A stretch of DNA of 29,548 nucleotides from Dehalococcoidales bacterium (GTDB lineage Bacteria; Chloroflexota; Dehalococcoidia; Dehalococcoidales; RBG-16-60-22): assembly GCA_016926115.1 (NCBI GenBank), contig JAFGPF010000007.1, positions 1 through 29,548 of the forward strand, given 5' to 3'. The notes beneath the pieces were generated by a model. It had not been told where the DNA came from. It worked only from the letters and a program-made list of their open reading frames with translations, and searched no databases. This document shows, piece after piece, positions 3,747 to 26,592 of this stretch. Numbering within the stretch: the stretch's first letter is position 1; each line of letters starts with the position of its first letter. The position numbers and the translations under genes are program-made.

Positions 3747-4211
3747 CTACCTGCGGAAAAGTCCCCGTTTCTTGGGCAGGTATGCTGGGTTATTCATGTT
3801 GGCGTAGACCCATTCCCGGAGACTATCCTTGCAGGAAGCCAGCGGCGCTTTTAGTTTTTCAACGTCGCCGGGCGAGACGTAGCCGGTCAAACCCAGCTTA
3901 CGGGCGGTATCAATGGTGACGTTAAGCTCGGATGCCTGTTCGAACAAATTCTTGAGGTCGTTCCTCAACTCGACGGGCAGGAAGTCCACCTTTTCTCTGT
4001 GCTTGTCCCAGGCGCCCGTCCGGAACCTGCCGGGTACGTGTCCCTCGTCGTAGTTCTCACAGAGTTTCTCGTTGTGCCTGACGTCGGAAGCTATGCCGAC
4101 GACCTTACCAATCGGCGCCCGCCGCGTACGCCATCCCTGGACGAAGACACTCAACACCAGCACCAGCACCAGCGCGACACCGATAAGTATCGTTGAGACT
4201 AAATCACTCAA
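3747..4211 (-). CDS. Small membrane-anchored protein of unknown function
   Basis: 154 residues with one N-terminal transmembrane helix (about 5-25) and a soluble, charged remainder that probably faces the cytoplasm (RTRR follows the helix). No family was recognised. The start is TTG at 4209-4211, supported by GAAGGA about 10 nt upstream and by a plausible promoter at 4252-4280. It is convergent with rimI, with 11 bp between the stops. Confidence 0.7.
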   Translation of the reverse strand: MSDLVSTILIGVALVLVLVLSVFVQGWRTRRAPIGKVVGIASDVRHNEKLCENYDEGHVPGRFRTGAWDKHREKVDFLPVELRNDLKNLFEQASELNVTIDTARKLGLTGYVSPGDVEKLKAPLASCKDSLREWVYANMNNPAYLPKKRGLFRR

Positions 4212-9574: not shown

Positions 9575-9594
9575 GGTAATAGAGGGAACAATTC

Positions 9595-9789
9595 ATGACG
9601 GCACTATGGCTGATAATCGGGGCGGCGGCGGGGGGAACACTGGGCTGGCTGCTCGGGCGTTTCAACAGTCGCCGGAACAAGGACTGCGCCACGCCCACCT
9701 GAGGCGCCACGGCAAGTCCCCGGGCGGGGACAATCACCGGTATTATCCTCGGGCTGCTGGTTGCTTATATCATTACTTTCACGGCATAA
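9595..9789 (+). CDS. Candidate 64-residue membrane selenoprotein (in-frame UGA at codon 36)
   Basis: Starting at ATG 9595 (AGAGGGA 7 nt upstream), the frame reads 35 codons to TGA at 9700-9702, then continues in the same frame for 28 codons to TAA at 9787. Both halves make sense together: a Gly-rich transmembrane helix (about 3-21), a short loop CATPT-U (Cys31 and UGA at 36), then a second Gly-rich helix (about 45-61). This resembles small two-helix proteins of DUF6132 type, which as I recall carry a Cys-x4-Cys pair in the loop; the UGA sits exactly where the second Cys belongs. A GC-rich hairpin 13 nt past the UGA could be a bacterial SECIS. It ends 7 nt before uvrB. The alternative is a 35-residue peptide or a broken gene. 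Confidence 0.6.
9698..9753 (+). other. Candidate bacterial SECIS for UGA at 9700
   Basis: Apical stem GTCCCC (9716-9721) with GGGGAC (9726-9731), loop GGGC beginning with G; the loop starts 19 nt after the UGA. A lower stem CCTGAGG (9698-9704, containing the UGA) can pair with CCTCGGG (9747-9753) with one G-U. Stem, loop and distance fit the published bacterial SECIS rules (loop 3-14 nt, G in the first two positions, 16-37 nt from UGA). Confidence 0.5.
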
Positions 9790-9796: not shown

Positions 9797-11845
9797 ATGC
9801 CGCAATTCAAAATAGTCTCCGATTTTCAGATGACCGGCGACCAGCCCCAGGCGGTGGACAAGCTGGTGGAAGGTCTCGGGAAAGGCTACAAGCACCAGAC
9901 CCTGCTGGGCGTCACCGGCAGCGGCAAGACCTTCACCATGGCTAACGTCATCGAGAGGGTGCAGCGTCCCACGCTGGTCATCTGCCATAACAAGACCCTC
10001 GCCGCCCAGCTCGCCAGCGAGTTCAGGGAGTTCTTCCCGGAAAACGCCGTCGAGTACTTCGTCAGCTACTACGATTACTATCAGCCGGAGGCGTATATCC
10101 CCCGCCGGGACCTCTACATCGAAAAAGACGCGGACATCAACGAGGAAATAGACAAGCTGCGCCACGCCGCCACCCACGCCCTGCTGTCACGTCGCGACGT
10201 GCTCATCGTGGCGTCCGTGTCCTGCATCTACGGACTGGGCGAGCCGGGCGAATACCAGGGGTTCGTCGCCACCCTGAAAAAAGGCGAGCGCTACGGGCGA
10301 CAGCAGCTCCTGCGCCAGCTGGTGGACATGCAGTACACCCGCAACGAGCTGGAACTGTCCCGCGGCAAGTTCCGCATCCGGGGAGATACCCTGGAACTCC
10401 AGCCGGCCTACGAAGAAATTGCCGTAAAAATAGAGTTCTTCGGGGACGACATTGAGCGCCTCCTATCAATCGACCCCCTCACCGGTGAAATCCTCAACGA
10501 CCTCGAGGAAATAAGCATCTACCCCGCCAAGCACTTCGTGACCTCCCGGGAAAGGATGGTCAGCGCCATCGAGTCGATACGCGTGGAACTGGCGGAACGC
10601 ATCAAAGAATTTAACAAAGAGGGCAAGATAGTGGAGGCGGCGCGCATCCAGGCGCGCACCGAGTACGACCTGGAGATGATGATGGAGGCGGGGTACTGCT
10701 CCGGGGTGGAGAACTATTCGCGCCACCTGGCGGATAGACCCGCGGGAAGCTCGCCGTCGACGCTGCTGGATTACTTCCCGAAAGACTGGCTGCTGTTCAT
10801 TGACGAATCGCACATGACCCTGCCCCAGATACGGAGCATGTACCGCGGCGACCAGTCACGGAAAAATACGCTCGTGGAATACGGCTTCCGGCTGCCCTCC
10901 GCCATGGACAACCGGCCCCTGAATTTCGACGAGTTTCAATCGTGCGTCAACCAGGTGATTTATACCTCGGCGACGCCGGCCCCTTTCGAGTACGAACACA
11001 GCCAGCAGGTGGTGGAGCAACTGGTCAGGCCTACCGGCCTTCTGGAACCGAAAATCGTGGTCAAGCCAACCAGGGGACAAATCGACGACCTTCTGGCTCA
11101 GATAAAAACGAGGGTTGACAAGGGGAGCCGCTGCCTGGTGACCACGCTGACCAAGCGGATGGCGGAGGAACTGGCGGACTACATCGCCGAGATGGGCGTT
11201 AAGGCGCACTACCTGCACTCGGAGGTGGACACGCTGGAGAGGGTGGAAATCCTGCGTGATTTACGCCTCGGCGTTTACGACGTAATCGTCGGCATCAACC
11301 TTTTAAGGGAGGGACTCGACCTGCCGGAGGTAAGCCTCGTCGCCATCCTCGACGCCGACAAGGAAGGGTATTTGCGGTCGAAGGGGGCGCTGATACAGGT
11401 GATGGGCCGCGCCGCCCGGCACGTCGACGGACAGGTCATCATGTACGCGGACAACGTCACCCGCTCCATGCGGGAGGCAATCGACGAGACAGAGCGCCGC
11501 CGCAAGATACAGGAGGACTTCAACCGCGAGCACGGCATCACCCCTCAGGGCATACGCAAGGCGGTCAGGGACATCACCGAGCGCGTCAAGGCCGTCGCCG
11601 AGACCCGCGCCGAGTACGAGTACGAAGTCCCCGTCACCCGCGAGGATACCCTGCGACTGGTGAAGGAACTGGAAACGCAGATGAAGCAGGCCGCCAGGGC
11701 GCTGGAGTTCGAGAAGGCGGCGTTAATCAGGGATAGAATCATCGAACTGCGCAAGGAACTGGTGATTGAGGATGGACAGCAGTTCACGCGAAAAGAACCG
11801 AAGGAGATAGCGCATGAGACCGAAGACCAGGGAAGAAGCGATTAA
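9797..11845 (+). CDS. uvrB: Excinuclease ABC subunit B
   Basis: 682 residues, full length. UvrB is the ATP-driven damage-verification subunit of UvrABC nucleotide excision repair. Walker A GVTGSGKT is at 38-45, the beta-hairpin [10 protein letters not shown] at 91-100, a DESH helicase motif near 340, helicase domain 3 with [13 protein letters not shown] and the [10 protein letters not shown] motif, and a C-terminal UVR domain that contacts UvrC. The start at 9797 is chosen by family alignment ([19 protein letters not shown]). No ribosome-binding site precedes it. It is flanked by two genes with in-frame UGA codons, the second overlapping its 3' end by 32 nt. Confidence 0.97.
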
Positions 11846-12329
11846 AACGGTACGCGAAAAAGCGGGCGAGAACATGCCGAAATACGGCAGTTGAGCTTAC
11901 GGCACCGTTCTTGCGTTGCAGGACACGTTCGATTTAAAAGACGAGGCGCTGCTGAAAGCCTCCGGCGCGCTGACGGGGGGCATCGGGGGGCTGGCCGATA
12001 CCTGCGGCTCGATGATTGGCGCCACCCTGGTACTGGGGTCGGTCTGCGGACGGGGACGGCATGACGGCGAGGCAGGCATGGAGAAGCTGCATGAGTCCGT
12101 CCGGCAGGCAGCCGATTTTTACAGGTGGTTCAAGGAAGAAATGGGTTCGGTGAACTGCCGCGAGCTCGTCACCGGCTACGGCAACGGCACTTTTTACGAC
12201 TTCGGTATACCGGAGCAGGCAAAGGCGGCACAGGAAGCCGGCGTGGCACAGAAATGCGACGAGCAGATACTGATGGTGGTCACCAGGGCGGCGGAGATAC
12301 TCTGGGACGAGCTTTACGGGGATAGCTGA
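11814..12329 (+). CDS. C-GCAxxG-C-C family redox protein, candidate selenoprotein (UGA at codon 27)
   Basis: From ATG 11814 (AAGGAGAT 8 nt upstream) the frame runs 26 codons to TGA at 11892-11894 and on to TGA 12327. The product would be 171 residues. It matches the C_GCAxxG_C_C family: a helical start, the [20 protein letters not shown] block with Cys64, and later Cys115 and Cys148. Family members have a Cys at the first motif position (often NCAQ, after Tyr-Asn); here the UGA replaces it (YGS-U-AYG). Selenocysteine forms of this family are known in public annotation, as I recall. A hairpin with loop GTT begins 11 nt after the UGA. It overlaps uvrB by 32 nt and the next small gene by 1 nt. 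Without readthrough only a 26-residue peptide is made, or a truncated start at TTG 11916. Confidence 0.78.
11906..11927 (+). other. Candidate bacterial SECIS for UGA at 11892
   Basis: TCTTGC (11909-11914) pairs with GCAGGA (11918-11923) with one G-U, and CGT (11906-11908) with ACG (11925-11927) past a one-base bulge. The loop GTT starts 20 nt after the UGA and opens with G-U, as in the E. coli fdhF element. Confidence 0.5.
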
Positions 12330-13900: not shown

Positions 13901-13929
13901 TTGATATTTACATACTCCAGATGTATAAT
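13901..13929 (+). promoter_or_regulatory. Strong promoter for tcmP, near-leaderless
   Basis: TTGATA (13901-13906), a 17-bp spacer and perfect TATAAT (13924-13929). Transcription should begin near 13936, only about 4 nt before the ATG at 13940. Confidence 0.8.
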
Positions 13930-13939
13930 CTCAACCAGG

Positions 13940-14776
13940 ATGGCACTAGTATTTGATGAAATAGGTTACTGGTCTGAAATTAAATTAGAAATCATTGAAA
14001 AATACGCTTTGGCTTATTCCACTGTCTTTTCGAGCCCTAATTATAATTACCTTCACCATGTATATATAGACGCTTTTGCTGGTTCGGGCACACACATATC
14101 AAAAACCACCAAAGGCCAAGTACGCGGAAGCCCGCAAATAGCACTGGATATTCGCCCCCCTTTCAAAGAGTATTATTTCATTGATATTAACGGGGATAAA
14201 GTAGCTGAGTTAAATAAAATCGTATTAAACCGCCCCGAAGCCCACGTCCTTAAAGGCGATTGTAATAAAAGATTATTAGCGGATGTATTCCCGAAAGTTA
14301 AACGGGAAGACTACCGTAGAGGTCTTTGTCTACTAGACCCTTATCGTTTGAACTTAAACTGGGAAGTAATAGAAACAGCTGGCAAAATGGGGACTATTGA
14401 AATATTCTTGAACTTTCCTGTAATGGATATGAATCGAAATGTCTTGTTAAGTAATCCCAGATATGCCACTACTACTAATATAGAAAGAATGGATACTTTT
14501 TGGGGTGATCACACATGGACTAACATTGCCTATAATAAAACTCAAGACCTCTTTGGTGAAATAATAGATATAAAACAAAGTATTAAACTAATAACCGCAG
14601 CGTTTAGAAAGCGCCTCTTAGAAGTCGCACATTTTAAATATGTGCCCCAGCCCATCCCTATGCGTAACACCAGAAGTTCCATCTTGTATTTTTTATTTTT
14701 TGCTTCTAATAATGAAACTGGCGACAGGATACTGACAGGTATATTAAACAAGTATCGTGATAAAGGAATGAAATAA
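13940..14776 (+). CDS. tcmP: Three-Cys-motif partner protein TcmP
   Basis: 278 residues. TcmP proteins carry a methyltransferase-like Rossmann core: YIDAFAGSGTH near residue 42 is the AdoMet-type glycine loop, EYYFIDIN follows as the acidic strand, and LLDPYRLNLNWEVIE is the family signature block. TcmP is named for its constant neighbour, a protein with a three-Cys motif, which indeed follows (1-nt overlap, TAATG). The function is not established; DNA or RNA modification is likely. The frame opens earlier at 13901, but that codon lies in the -35 box, so ATG 13940 is chosen. The gene is AT-rich compared with its surroundings, suggesting transfer. Confidence 0.85.
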   Translation: MALVFDEIGYWSEIKLEIIEKYALAYSTVFSSPNYNYLHHVYIDAFAGSGTHISKTTKGQVRGSPQIALDIRPPFKEYYFIDINGDKVAELNKIVLNRPEAHVLKGDCNKRLLADVFPKVKREDYRRGLCLLDPYRLNLNWEVIETAGKMGTIEIFLNFPVMDMNRNVLLSNPRYATTTNIERMDTFWGDHTWTNIAYNKTQDLFGEIIDIKQSIKLITAAFRKRLLEVAHFKYVPQPIPMRNTRSSILYFLFFASNNETGDRILTGILNKYRDKGMK

Positions 14777-15507
14777 TGGCACAATCAACAACTATTGAAT
14801 GGACAGATTCAACCTGGAATCCGGTAACCGGATGTACAAAAATCAGCTCTGGATGTATAAACTGCTACGCTGAAAGGCTAGCTTTACGTCTAAAGGCTAT
14901 GGGCAATCCTAGTTACGTTAATGGTTTTTCAGTAACGTTACATGAAGAAACATTAATGTTGCCATTAAAATGGAAAAAGCCACAGACAATATTCGTTAAC
15001 TCAATGAGCGATCTATTTCATGAGGACATCCCGGTAGAGTTTATTTTTCGCGTATTTGATGTTATGTGTCGTGCGGATTGGCACAACTTCCAGATTCTCA
15101 CTAAAAGAGCTGATAGAATGCTTGAACTCAATCCTAGGCTAACATGGGCGCCACATATATGGATGGGTGTTACGGTAGAAGAACAAAATTATACTGACCG
15201 TATTAATCGCCTCCAAAAAACTAATGCAAGGGTTAAGTTCCTGTCACTTGAACCGCTACTAAGCCCTATACCCAATCTTCAACTAGAAGGAATAGACTGG
15301 GTAATTGTTGGTGGTGAATCTGGTCCAAAAGCAAGACCTATGAAAAAAGAATGGGCGCTTGATATTCGAAATCAATGTCAAGAAAAAAGAGTGCCGTTTT
15401 TCTTTAAACAATGGGGCGGTATAAATAAGAAAAAGACGGGGCGAGTTCTCGAAGGACGTACATGGGATGAAACCCCAATAATGGCAACAAGTCCACAGTT
15501 ATTATGA
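14776..15507 (+). CDS. Gp37/Gp68-type (DUF5131) three-Cys-motif protein
   Basis: 243 residues. The N-terminal EWTDSTWNPVTGC and the cysteines Cys20, Cys27 and Cys30 (C-x6-C-x2-C) define the phage Gp37/Gp68-like family, which probably binds an iron-sulfur cluster and resembles radical-SAM enzymes. Other family blocks are VNSMSDLFHEDIP, WMGVTVE, LSLEPLL and IVGGESGPKARPM, and FFFKQWGG near the end. It overlaps tcmP by one base, forming the usual two-gene unit found on phages, plasmids and defence-rich islands. Biochemical role unknown. The following gene converges with only one base between stops. Confidence 0.88.
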   Translation: MAQSTTIEWTDSTWNPVTGCTKISSGCINCYAERLALRLKAMGNPSYVNGFSVTLHEETLMLPLKWKKPQTIFVNSMSDLFHEDIPVEFIFRVFDVMCRADWHNFQILTKRADRMLELNPRLTWAPHIWMGVTVEEQNYTDRINRLQKTNARVKFLSLEPLLSPIPNLQLEGIDWVIVGGESGPKARPMKKEWALDIRNQCQEKRVPFFFKQWGGINKKKTGRVLEGRTWDETPIMATSPQLL

Positions 15508-16925: not shown

Positions 16926-17363
16926 ATGTCAAGAGCCGAACTGGAAAAATACCTTAGAAAAGGCGTCGTGACCGCAGAAACACCACATTCCGAGGTGTCC
17001 GCGCCGCGCCTGGGACTGCACAGCAACGAGGGTTTCGGCGGCAGGGACTTCTCGATGAGCTGGTGGGCAATCACCGAGCCGTTCGAGATGGTGACGGAGA
17101 ACCACGCCCACGACTTCGACCAGTTTCTTATCTTCGCGGGGGGAGACCTCACCAATATGCCCGACCTCGGCGGGGAGGTTGAACTCACCCTGAGCCTGGA
17201 CGGCAAAAACCTGGAGAAGTTCGTCATCACCGAAGCCACCATGGTCTACGTGCCCGCCGGACTGTACCACTGCCCGCTCAACTTTAAGAAAATCAACGAC
17301 CCCAAGAAGCCCATCCTCTTCCACGACCTCTTCTTCTCGCCGGAATACAAGAGGAAGGAATAA
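16926..17363 (+). CDS. Cupin-fold protein, member of a local paralogue family (copy 1)
   Basis: 145 residues. A cupin metal site is visible: His60-x-His62 in NHAHDFDQF (the usual Glu is replaced by Gln66) and His115 in YVPAGLYHCPL. Four further copies lie at 22.7-24.8 kb and share the endings xxPAxxxHxPLxx and GxxG-E-x-E-L/F. Cupins of this kind may be isomerases, oxygenases or binding proteins; nothing seen decides this. It has AAAGGAG before its start and its own promoter. DUF169 and DUF362 genes follow on the same strand. Confidence 0.78.
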   Translation: MSRAELEKYLRKGVVTAETPHSEVSAPRLGLHSNEGFGGRDFSMSWWAITEPFEMVTENHAHDFDQFLIFAGGDLTNMPDLGGEVELTLSLDGKNLEKFVITEATMVYVPAGLYHCPLNFKKINDPKKPILFHDLFFSPEYKRKE

Positions 17364-18246: not shown

Positions 18247-19162
18247 ATGACCAATATAAGCCTGGTACGCACCAGGGATAGAACGGAGGGCGTACGCAAA
18301 GCCGTGGCACTGCTCGGGGTAAATCCCGTTAAGGGCAAGTCCGTCGTGCTCAAGCCGAACTTCAACACCGCCGACCCCGCCCCCGGCTCCACCCACAATG
18401 ATACTCTGCGGTCGCTGATTACGATTCTGAAGGAAATGGGAGCGAGCAGGATAACGCTTAGCGGAGCGCAGCGGCCCCGGCGATACCACCCACCACATCA
18501 TGGAAATCAAGGGAGTCCTGCACATGGCGAAGGAACTCGGTTTTGAAATCGTCGACCTCCAGGCAATGGACAGAGACGGCTGGGTGCTGGTCAAGCCGGA
18601 AGACAGCCACTGGAAGGACGGCTTCCTGTTCCCTAAAATTTACCGGGAGGCGGAATCAATCGTACAGACGTGCTGCCTCAAGACCCACCAGTTCGGCGGG
18701 CATTTCACGCTGTCGCTGAAGTGCTCCGTGGGCATGGTGCCGCCGGGCCTGGGACCGGACGGGGAATACCCCTACATGAACGAGTTACATAGCTCTAAGT
18801 ATCAGCGGCAGATGATTGCGGAAATCAACACCGCCTACTCGCCGGACCTGGTCGTGCTGGACGGCGTGGAGGCTTTTGTGGATGGGGGGCCGCACGTCGG
18901 CAAGCGCGTGAAAGCCGACGTCATACTGGCCGGCACCGACCGCGTGGCGATAGATGCCGTAGGCGTGGCGATACTGCGCCTGCTGGGCACCACGCCCGAG
19001 GTAAGCCGGGGTAAAATCTTCCAGCAGGACCAGATTGCCAGGGCGGCGGAGCTGGGACTTGGCGCAAACTCCGCCGACCAGATTCAGATTGTCACCGGCG
19101 ATAAAGACAGCGAGGCGTACGCGGAAAAGGTAAGGGAGATGCTTTATAATAAAGGGTATTAA
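18247..19162 (+). pseudogene. DUF362 domain protein with a +1 frameshift
   Basis: The start at 18247 (GAGGTAA upstream) gives the DUF362 N-terminus (KAVALLGVNPVKGKSVVLKPNFNTA). Near 18457-18464 the family sequence moves to the next frame: after ITL the expected AERSGPGDTTHHIMEIKG is encoded one base over, and this frame runs intact to 19162 with YREAESIVQTCCLKTHQFGG and DLVVLDGVEAFVDGGPHVG. One extra base corrected, the protein would be 304 residues, full length for a DUF362 without the ferredoxin tail. It could be a recent mutation, an assembly error, or recoding at CTT-A. DUF362 function is not established. Confidence 0.8.
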
Positions 19163-22663: not shown

Positions 22664-22715
22664 ACATCGCTATATCACATCGACAGTAATTATTCCGAAA
22701 GGAGTGAGAAATCAA

Positions 22716-23174
22716 ATGCCGAAAGTCGATTATGAGAAAAACCTGGTCAGGAAACCACTTTATGAAGTAGGCATCCAGGCGGTCGGCAAGCACAAGGGAC
22801 ACCAGGTGCCTTCGATGACGTACATGAGCAACTCCCTGGTGCCCGGCAGTAACACGTACGTAGAGGTCAGCTGGATATATGACGTGCCGATGCCCAATCC
22901 GTACGTCTTCGAGCACGCGCATAATTTTAACGAAATCGTCATGCACATCGGCAGCGACCCTGAAAACCCGGAAGCCCTCGGCGGCGAGATGACCATAGAG
23001 GTCGAGGGCCAGCCACTCACTTTCGACCAGACGACGGCGCTCTTCCTTCCCAAGGGGACGAAACATGGCCCACTCACCTGGAAAAAGGTCACCCGCCCCC
23101 ACATCGAGATGACCATTATGCTGGGCTGCGGCGACTTCGCCAAGGCGATGCCGGGCAGAAACCCGGACAGTTAA
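22716..23174 (+). CDS. Cupin-fold protein, paralogue copy 2
   Basis: 152 residues. The full metal set is present: His67, His69 and Glu73 in EHAHNFNEI, and His117 in LPKGTKHGPLTW. ATG 22716 is chosen because AAAGGAG lies 11 nt upstream; the GTG at 22704 lies inside that site. It opens a tandem run of four paralogues on the plus strand. A C-terminal tail GCGDFAKAMPG differs from the others. Function unknown; substrate-binding or isomerase roles are both possible. Confidence 0.75.
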   Translation: MPKVDYEKNLVRKPLYEVGIQAVGKHKGHQVPSMTYMSNSLVPGSNTYVEVSWIYDVPMPNPYVFEHAHNFNEIVMHIGSDPENPEALGGEMTIEVEGQPLTFDQTTALFLPKGTKHGPLTWKKVTRPHIEMTIMLGCGDFAKAMPGRNPDS

Positions 23175-23241: not shown

Positions 23242-23763
23242 ATGGCAGAATCGAAATACGGAAAGTATATCTGCACGGAACTCAAGAAAAACATCCCGCT
23301 GCCTCCCTACCGGGAGTGGGAACGGGACATGATCGGGGACGGGCTGTGGGAAGGCTACCATCGCGGTCTGGAGCACATCGTCTGGACGGACGCCGAGGTA
23401 ATACCCGGTTCTTTCTACTCGGAAATGGTCTGGCAGTGGCCCCAGAGTTGGCCCAACCAGCGGCCGCGACCCAAGCTTACCCCGGAGCAAATCAAAGAGA
23501 TGGAGAAGAAACCGGGGGGCCAAGGCGTTCCCCCGCACGCGCACCCCTTTCCAGAACTTCTCTCCTTCTTCGGGACGGACATGGAACACCCGGAAGAGCT
23601 CAACGGCGAAGTGGAGTTCTGGATGGAGGACGAAAAATATATCTTTACAAAGAGCTTTGTCGTTTATATCCCCGCCAATGTCACCCACTGCCCATTGAGA
23701 GTCCACCGCATGGATAAACCCTTCTTCCACTATACCATCGGTCCCGGCGGTAGTTACGTTTAA
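23242..23763 (+). CDS. Cupin-fold protein, paralogue copy 3
   Basis: 173 residues, the longest copy. The N-terminus MAESKYGKYI is nearly the same as in copy 5 (MAETKYGKYI). Ligands His99, His101 and Glu105 (PPHAHPFPEL) and His149 (IPANVTHCPL) are present. The extra length is a basic, proline-rich insert (about 66-97) before the metal motif. AAAGGAAAAGG precedes the start. Confidence 0.75.
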   Translation: MAESKYGKYICTELKKNIPLPPYREWERDMIGDGLWEGYHRGLEHIVWTDAEVIPGSFYSEMVWQWPQSWPNQRPRPKLTPEQIKEMEKKPGGQGVPPHAHPFPELLSFFGTDMEHPEELNGEVEFWMEDEKYIFTKSFVVYIPANVTHCPLRVHRMDKPFFHYTIGPGGSYV

Positions 23764-23799: not shown

Positions 23800-24234
23800 A
23801 TGGCGAATAAATACGAAAAAATGTTTGTAACACAGGACAAACCCGGCTATGAATATCCTCCTTACGAACATCCCGACTCCAAGACGACTAAGCGTCTCGC
23901 CTATATCGACGAGAGTACCGTAAACGGGGCGGAGTTCGGGTGCGAGAATATGTGGCTGCTGCCCGGCGGGCCTAAAGAACTAAAACTGCTGGACGCCAAC
24001 ACCCAGCCGTACGACAGATTTTTCGGCTTATATGCCTTCAACTACGATAATATCCGCGACCTCTGCGCTGAAGCGGAAGTCTATATCGGCGGGGAAAAGC
24101 ACATCGTCAAGAAGAGCTTTGCCATGTTCATTCCAGCCAACCTGGAAATAGGACCTCTGACCATTCGCGACATCACCAAGCCCATCTTCTTTACCATCGA
24201 ATTCCCCTGCGGGAAAGCCGTTAAGAAGAAATAA
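23800..24234 (+). CDS. Cupin-fold protein, paralogue copy 4, metal ligands lost
   Basis: 144 residues. It keeps the family's closing pattern (FAMFIPANLEIGPLTI) and spacing, but the His-x-His-x3-Glu segment reads NTQPYDRFFGLY and the last His is Ile (LEIGPL), so no metal ligand remains. A binding or structural subunit that partners an active copy is likely. AAAGGAAA precedes the start. Gap of 36 bp after copy 3. Confidence 0.7.
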   Translation: MANKYEKMFVTQDKPGYEYPPYEHPDSKTTKRLAYIDESTVNGAEFGCENMWLLPGGPKELKLLDANTQPYDRFFGLYAFNYDNIRDLCAEAEVYIGGEKHIVKKSFAMFIPANLEIGPLTIRDITKPIFFTIEFPCGKAVKKK

Positions 24235-24351: not shown

Positions 24352-24810
24352 ATGGCAGAAACCAAATATGGAAAATACATCATCAGCCGTCTCCAGCAAC
24401 CCGCTGCAGAAGCCCCCTGGAACCCGCCGATATCCGTTGCCGGCAAGGGTAAAAGCGGACGTGTCCTGTTCATGGACAGCGAGATTGTCCCGGGGGCTTT
24501 CTATATGGAGTGCGTCTGGATACTGCCCCGGCCTGCCGGCGCTCCACCACCCGACCCCTCCAAGTCCGGCGTCACCGAACCCCATGCCCATGACTATGAC
24601 GAAATCATCGGCTTCATCGGAACCGACAATGACGACCCCTACGACCTGGGCGCCGAGGTCGAGCTGCATCTGGGAGAAGAAAAACACCTCATCACCAAAA
24701 CCAGCCTGGTCTTTATTCCGGCGGGGCTGGTACACTGCCCGCTGCTTTTCCTCAGTGTAGACAGACCGGTGTTTCATTACACCACCGGCCCCGGCAAGAT
24801 GTATTTTTAA
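24352..24810 (+). CDS. Cupin-fold protein, paralogue copy 5
   Basis: 152 residues. Metal ligands His78, His80 and Glu84 (EPHAHDYDEI) and His128 (IPAGLVHCPLLF). N-terminus MAETKYGKYI links it to copy 3, and the ending GPGKMYF to copy 3's GPGGSYV. AAAGGAG precedes the start. It is the last gene before a bidirectional terminator. Confidence 0.78.
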   Translation: MAETKYGKYIISRLQQPAAEAPWNPPISVAGKGKSGRVLFMDSEIVPGAFYMECVWILPRPAGAPPPDPSKSGVTEPHAHDYDEIIGFIGTDNDDPYDLGAEVELHLGEEKHLITKTSLVFIPAGLVHCPLLFLSVDRPVFHYTTGPGKMYF

Positions 24811-26395: not shown

Positions 26396-26586
26396 ACTCG
26401 TACCTCCTGCAATACCACTCCCGATAACCCCCGCTCCCCATAAAGAGAAAGTCCCTGCGCCTGCTGCACAAGGACCCGATTATCCATACCTCAATGGTAC
26501 GGTATCTTTTCATCCTCGGCAGGCTCAATATTAAGTCCTCCACCTGTGAAGGACGCCCGCTGTCTCTGGACTCTTTATTCAGTTGA
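26396..26586 (-). promoter_or_regulatory. Ribosomal L10 leader RNA
   Basis: The 5' leader of rplJ-rplL. On the minus strand AGACAGCGGGCG (near 26554-26565), CCTGCCGAGG (26514-26523) and the downstream GGGTCC/GGGACT elements match the conserved L10 leader that folds into the L10(L12)4 binding site. No gene is on this stretch. Confidence 0.8.
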
Positions 26587-26592
26587 CACTAT

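Follow-up and report, generated by a model that had tools for sequence, protein, structure and literature searches.

The locus examined here raises the question of whether a short reading frame crossed by a UGA codon is a single gene in which UGA is read as selenocysteine (Sec), or a gene that ends at that codon. It lies in a stretch of 29,548 nucleotides, referred to here as the window, from a Dehalococcoidales bacterium (GenBank assembly GCA_016926115.1, contig JAFGPF010000007.1, forward strand). The frame starts with the ATG at 9595, stops at the TAA at 9787-9789 and contains a single in-frame TGA at 9700-9702, which is codon 36. The first-pass annotation of the window had described this single interruption and had held that TGA is the stop of other genes in the window. 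Sequence and translation confirm the former, and TGA ends six of the 15 window ORFs taken as genes, so it functions as a stop in this genome. The small gene at 9595-9789 nevertheless very probably encodes a selenoprotein, best read as a new family of such proteins in which DUF6132 occurs in its Sec form. This reading is based on the position of the UGA at the Cys of the relatives, a conserved SECIS-type hairpin, protein-like codon evolution and the presence of Sec genes in the relatives. The features concerned are collected in Table 1.

Table 1. Positions of the small UGA-bearing gene, its elements and its downstream neighbours in the window.
Feature	Position	Strand	Basis or remark
AGAGGGA, Shine-Dalgarno-like	9581..9587	+	7 nt upstream of the ATG; sequence reading
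64-residue membrane protein with two helices, DUF6132-like candidate selenoprotein	9595..9789	+	Translation; 22 relatives with the same UGA; modelled helices
Cys31, first residue of the Cys-x4-Sec pair	9685..9687	+	Cys in this column in 18/23 UGA genes
UGA, candidate Sec codon, residue 36	9700..9702	+	UGA in 23/23 genes; Cys in homologues
SECIS-type hairpin	9716..9731	+	Stem 9716-9721/9726-9731, loop GGGC 9722-9725; published model, codon constraint, covariation
uvrB	9797..11845	+	PF12344 and PF17757; ATG 7 nt past the stop of the small gene
C-GCAxxG-C-C family gene	11814..12329	+	UGA 11892-11894 at the first family Cys; overlaps the end of uvrB

The AlphaFold2 model of the window protein (mean pLDDT 76, pTM 0.52) contains helices at residues 2-30 and 42-63, with C31 and U36 (modelled as Cys) in the loop between them. 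Comparison of this model with PDB structures returned no match with E ≤ 0.001. The loop carries four Arg/Lys residues and one Asp. By the positive-inside rule it may be cytoplasmic, a weak inference because the loops of other members range from 0 to 6 basic residues.

A profile search of the protein databases retrieved 31 full-length proteins labelled PF19628 (DUF6132), along with short entries, and a second search with a Cys-type query gave 350 matches, the best 120 of which were used. In the alignment (A2), the UGA column is occupied by Cys in all 19 of the DUF6132 proteins included. The motif Cx4C is present in 146/146 full-length homologues fetched (144 by pattern, two by eye; best 120 of 350 from the second search), which form an uneven sample because the second search is biased towards sequences close to its query. 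The earlier proposals of a Cys-x4-Cys pair with the UGA at its second Cys, and of Cys at residue 36 in homologues, are thus borne out in every full-length homologue fetched. The proposed likeness to DUF6132 fits as well. Four UGA-bearing relatives (L010-L013), when read through, score 27.0-43.9 bits with PF19628, above the gathering cut-off of 23.2 bits, whereas the window protein remains below it at 10.4 bits and is therefore named DUF6132-like. It does possess the loop typical of the fetched DUF6132 members, in the form of Cx4U between two helices.

The UGA is not confined to the window. A homologue with TGA at the matching codon was found at 22 further loci in 21 Dehalococcoidia genomes. 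The first relative, L001 (the same gene as L009), was recognized by a scan of genome contigs in a Dehalococcoidales MAG, with 78% identity and TGA at the equivalent codon. Searching 393 genomes of the class yielded six matches, all of which contain a single TGA. L014 proved spurious, and the remaining five are genuine relatives. The total of 22, in which the window is not counted, includes added profile searches of the class (393 genomes) and the order (156 genomes). In a phylum sample of 400 genomes, the two matches at E ≤ 1e-5 were loci found before, and no Cys form occurs among the matches in the class (393), order (156) and phylum (400) samples. Genome G144 carries two loci (G144a and G144b), and the copy in G313 loses its start at a contig end. 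Repeat fetches of one place (L025, L026, L028, L029, L038, L039, L045-L047, L050 and others) were counted once. Loci left out of the count are L014 and L036, with translations unlike the family, the fragment L034, and L035 and L055-L057, with neither Cys nor Sec.

Across the set, the Sec column is invariant as UGA in 23/23 genes, and the second helix, the Pro and the Gly are likewise kept in all 23. The first Cys precedes Sec with four residues between them in 18 genes, stands immediately before it in three (G248, G456 and G465) and is absent from the loop in two (G144b and G479). A chance frame is ruled out by the 22 other loci with UGA at the matching codon, and a sequencing error at 9700 is excluded as the cause because the UGA is conserved in 23 genes.

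Some more distant or incomplete loci were also observed. L035, L055, L056 and L057 (genomes G308, G442, G443 and G445) are weak relatives with neither Cys nor Sec at the site; Ala is found there, and a Cys lies near the C-terminus (DGCG). selA is present in three of these four genomes and tRNA-Sec in three. In G377, a family fragment (L034/L080, approximately 3984-4090) lacks the first helix and the UGA and retains the hairpin sequence. It sits directly 3′ of a thioredoxin gene and reflects either a deletion or an assembly fault.

In bacteria, the UGA of a selenoprotein gene is followed by a SECIS element. The model published in the 2026 catalogue, as given in its available text, describes a 3-9 nt loop that has G in its first two positions, on a 4-16 bp stem, with a spacing of 16-37 nt and a free energy of at most -7.5 (PMC13188914). 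In the window, the loop of the hairpin GUCCCC-GGGC-GGGGAC lies 19 nt past the UGA, as the first-pass annotation had described. The lower stem that in its account could take in the UGA is not confirmed; the UGA is unpaired in the predicted fold. The hairpin loop lies 18-25 nt after the UGA in 23/23 genes, with GGUC as the commonest loop of the set. Of the 23 hairpins, 21 conform to the published model, that of the window among them. Since the position of loop and stem was set from the CCC/GGG anchor, this result checks the hairpins one by one and does not amount to a blind search. The two misses are G063 (a 3-bp stem by strict count) and G466 (free energy -5.5).

The anchor itself shows a constraint on codon choice. 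The Pro codon, which begins 18 nt (21 genes) or 24 nt (two genes) past the first base of the UGA, is CCC in 23/23 genes; the Gly codon that follows three codons later is GGG in 23/23. The seven other Gly columns common to at least 19 rows each use three or four Gly codons. In the 15 window ORFs, CCC accounts for 108 of 232 Pro codons and GGG for 66 of 300 Gly codons; products of these fractions are not true probabilities because the rows are related. Comparison with the other Gly columns of these genes suffers less from this objection of kinship.

Compensatory changes are seen in the stem. Across 21 distinct hairpin rows, 85% of cells are paired in the seven-pair stem. Two-sided changes are seen in four of the seven stem pairs, a level reached by 15 of 500 shuffles. 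None of 500 shuffles (mean 0.113) attains the covariation score of 0.193, and slid controls stay at or below 0.091; the number of further pair types is unremarkable (67/500 shuffles). The fold energy of the window hairpin region is ordinary for its composition (z = 0.13). In synonymous resamples only 6 of the 23 hairpin regions fall in the best 5%, and that of G466 folds worse than 99%. As fold energy is ordinary, the evidence that the hairpin exceeds chance comes from its conservation in other genomes, from codon constraint and from covariation.

The sequence past the UGA evolves as coding sequence. In ten of ten pairs of related genes the dN/dS after the UGA is below 1 (0.10-0.71), single values being rough because pS reaches 0.73, with several pairs near saturation, and the stretch spans 26-30 codons. 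Between the window and L009, dN/dS is 0.40 after the UGA and 0.16 before it. These values bear directly on the simplest alternative, in which translation ordinarily ends at the UGA and the rest of the frame is a remnant. Selection below 1 in all ten pairs, the retention of the second helix, the Pro and the Gly in 23/23 genes and the placement of the UGA in a Cys column all speak against such decay, even though 15 protein-database entries of 33-40 residues end at the UGA position (at the protein level), where gene callers have ended them, and TGA closes 6/15 window ORFs. The short entries appear to match what would be expected if gene callers stop at the UGA, after residue 35. An ordinary stop is rejected by the selection and codon evidence and is considered very improbable. 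It could also be envisaged that the UGA is used both ways, as a selenium-sensitive switch that yields a 35-residue, one-helix form when selenium is scarce and a 64-residue form when it is present, with the short form working too. In favour of such a switch, the N-terminal part is a complete helix ending in a conserved loop, but no sign of a role for the short form is seen here and the second helix is under selection, leaving this dual use improbable.

A further alternative concerns the decoding itself: the UGA might stand for another residue (Trp, Cys or Gly), inserted without SelB or under a variant code. Such codes do leave the frame open, but elsewhere in the window TGA ends genes in the ordinary way and the hairpin would be left purposeless. 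The carriers also encode components of Sec insertion; the first-pass annotation had looked to a complete Sec pathway in the genome for support. Of the 21 carrier genomes of the UGA form, 20 have at least one of selA, selB and tRNA-Sec and 11 have all three. selB scores above cut-off in 17/21 carriers (not in G405, G406, G422 and G486). With G144 set aside, selA is found in 16/20 carriers (not in G063, G342, G405 and G422; partial and below cut-off in G406) and tRNA-Sec in 14/20 (not in G313, G342, G405, G465, G467 and G486). The anticodon is TCA, as determined with ARAGORN, in the five carriers with fetched tRNA-Sec loci, and selD, itself UGA-bearing, is present in 5/5 carriers examined. This tRNA-Sec, together with the distribution of selB, further opposes a variant reading, which is held to be extremely improbable. 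G405 (0.9 Mb) has none of selA, selB and tRNA-Sec, though it carries the UGA form. Since selA occurs in 98 of the 156 genomes of the order, co-occurrence with the family (p = 0.044 for selA, 0.17 for tRNA-Sec) is weak evidence, because the carrier genomes are fragmentary and Sec genes are common in the order. Sec is mentioned in dehydrogenases of Dehalococcoidales in the available text of PMC4959059. Under the selenoprotein reading, SelB with Sec-tRNA would decode the UGA as Sec, using the hairpin.

The window holds a second UGA-bearing gene. When read through, it matches PF09719 with 73.6 bits and TIGR01909, named ‘C-GCAxxG-C-C family (seleno)protein’, with 49.0 bits against a cut-off of 47.4. 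A matching UGA is found in three related copies, in G001 and G461. A hairpin at approximately 11909-11923, with the loop GUU, lies 20 nt past the UGA and has an ordinary fold energy; the gene’s own stop is an ordinary TGA. PF09719 is listed as a selenoprotein family in Table 1 of the 2026 catalogue (PMC13188914). The second gene is separate, supporting evidence that the organism of the window decodes UGA as Sec.

Other features of the window were recorded. Two overlapping ORFs in different frames at 18247-19162 (+), the second of which is a DUF362 gene starting in mid-domain, look like one frameshifted gene. Five ORFs of approximately 145-175 residues at 16926-17363, 22704-23174, 23242-23763, 23800-24234 and 24352-24810 (+) are alike by eye, with ends of the type ...VxxPxGLxHCPL; four were scanned, with no Pfam match. 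An ORF without a Pfam match directly followed by a DUF5131 (phage Gp37/Gp68-type) gene at 13901-15507 (+) looks like a mobile or defence-type pair. A ribosomal protein L10 leader (RF00557, 55.2 bits) is located at 26436-26587 (-), upstream of an rplJ-type gene.

The surroundings of the small gene differ between genomes. It is possibly in one transcript with uvrB in the window. In 7 of 24 neighbourhoods, uvrB is among the next five ORFs downstream and shares the strand of the small gene, which it adjoins in three of them, at 7 nt in the window, 13 nt in G466 and 25 nt in G479; the gene of the window was identified by Pfam scan and the others were grouped with it by BLAST. A thioredoxin gene lies 34 nt before the G377 fragment and another 544 nt away in G486. 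AhpC/TSA is found 197 nt away in G465, MsrB 244 nt away in G467, glutaredoxin-PDZ approximately 0.9 kb away in G144b and G342, and rhodanese 4.2 kb away in G144a. An ArsR-type regulator is located 486 nt upstream in G040, and a relative of this gene at approximately 480 nt in G063. The gene 2 nt upstream in G040 has a ferredoxin-like Cys pattern when read by eye, with no match in a Pfam scan.

A membrane thiol/selenol redox role is tentatively favoured, at somewhat less than even probability. In this role, a selenenylsulfide/selenol site made up of the Sec and its Cys partner would lie at the membrane surface, perhaps facing the cytoplasm, as suggested by the richness of the window protein’s loop in Arg/Lys. 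The partners with which this site would exchange electrons would resemble thioredoxin, glutaredoxin or ferredoxin. Some copies do have a gene for thioredoxin, AhpC/TSA, MsrB or glutaredoxin nearby; against this, the neighbours vary between genomes, and G144b and G479 are without a partner Cys in the loop. The main rival, judged unlikely, also takes the product to be a Sec protein and proposes a relay for soft metals (Hg, Cu, Cd), with the Cys/Sec pair passing a metal ion across or along the membrane. Small mercury transporters hand on a metal ion in a comparable way, and a selenol binds soft metals strongly. The ArsR-type regulators approximately 480 nt upstream in G040 and G063 would suit such a relay, as would one Cys-type DUF6132 gene on a Riemerella plasmid, located 2 nt downstream of a heavy-metal-associated (HMA) gene with a TonB-dependent receptor close by. 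In contrast, a pattern scan of the 24 neighbourhoods detected no HMA-type motif close to the UGA genes, the nearest being a pump-like double motif approximately 4.9 kb away in G467, and two UGA genes lack the second thiol in the loop. The Riemerella loci amount to four plasmid records of one kind of plasmid; the plasmid search for Cys-type loci returned only Riemerella records, and no relatives were found on viral contigs.

It is likely that the small gene represents an unreported family, among the smallest membrane selenoproteins, Sec-only in the Dehalococcoidia samples searched and with its SECIS set in a fixed Pro-x-x-Gly codon block. Such a protein would be a minimal selenol device of the membrane that transfers electrons or soft metals. 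DUF6132/PF19628 is absent from the 119 families or subfamilies of Table 1 of the 2026 catalogue (PMC13188914); the families of Haft & Tolstoy 2025 were compared only as rows of that table. The available text of the deep-Sep paper (PMC12013277) gives nine new families, none named DUF6132; three are hypothetical and were compared by name only. A search of NCBIfam release 20.0, with E values up to 10 admitted, matched no selenoprotein model to the window protein or to four of its relatives. The literature search, with subscription papers and GenBank annotation outside its scope, gave no paper with both ‘selenoprotein’ and ‘DUF6132’, and the sole match to ‘DUF6132’ was irrelevant. The family is hidden in protein databases because gene callers appear to cut it at residue 35, and the fixed CCC and GGG codons offer a simple signature for finding more members. 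The finding would add a selenoprotein family in uncultured anaerobes to those of Table 1 of the catalogue (PMC13188914), with its 119 entries. DUF6132 also gains a chemical hint, as a position at which Sec can stand probably acts as a reactive nucleophile or a ligand; if true, this marks the Cys-type family as chemically active too.

Compared with known systems, the small gene shares with the bacterial selenoproteins described in the available text of PMC13188914 a UGA opposite the Cys of relatives, a SECIS-type hairpin directly after it and Sec genes in the carriers. The C-GCAxxG-C-C family (PF09719/TIGR01909), to which the second UGA gene of the window belongs, is a larger protein unrelated to the small gene. 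The putative mercuric transport protein PF02411, listed in Table 1 of the same catalogue (PMC13188914) as a membrane-type selenoprotein with a C/SxxU motif, likewise pairs Cys/Ser with Sec; family and spacing differ from the window protein, and PF02411 gives no match for it or for L010-L013 at E up to 10. The closest known relative is Pfam PF19628 (DUF6132, function unknown), with which two Gly-rich helices, the Cx4C loop and a T/S-x-P after the loop are shared, the UGA of the window family aligning opposite the second Cys. The window family differs from DUF6132 in having a Sec codon at this second Cys, and the window protein has a longer loop before the pair. Where DUF6132 has residues of the PWIS/PWRG type, most UGA members have PWSG, with fixed CCC and GGG codons.
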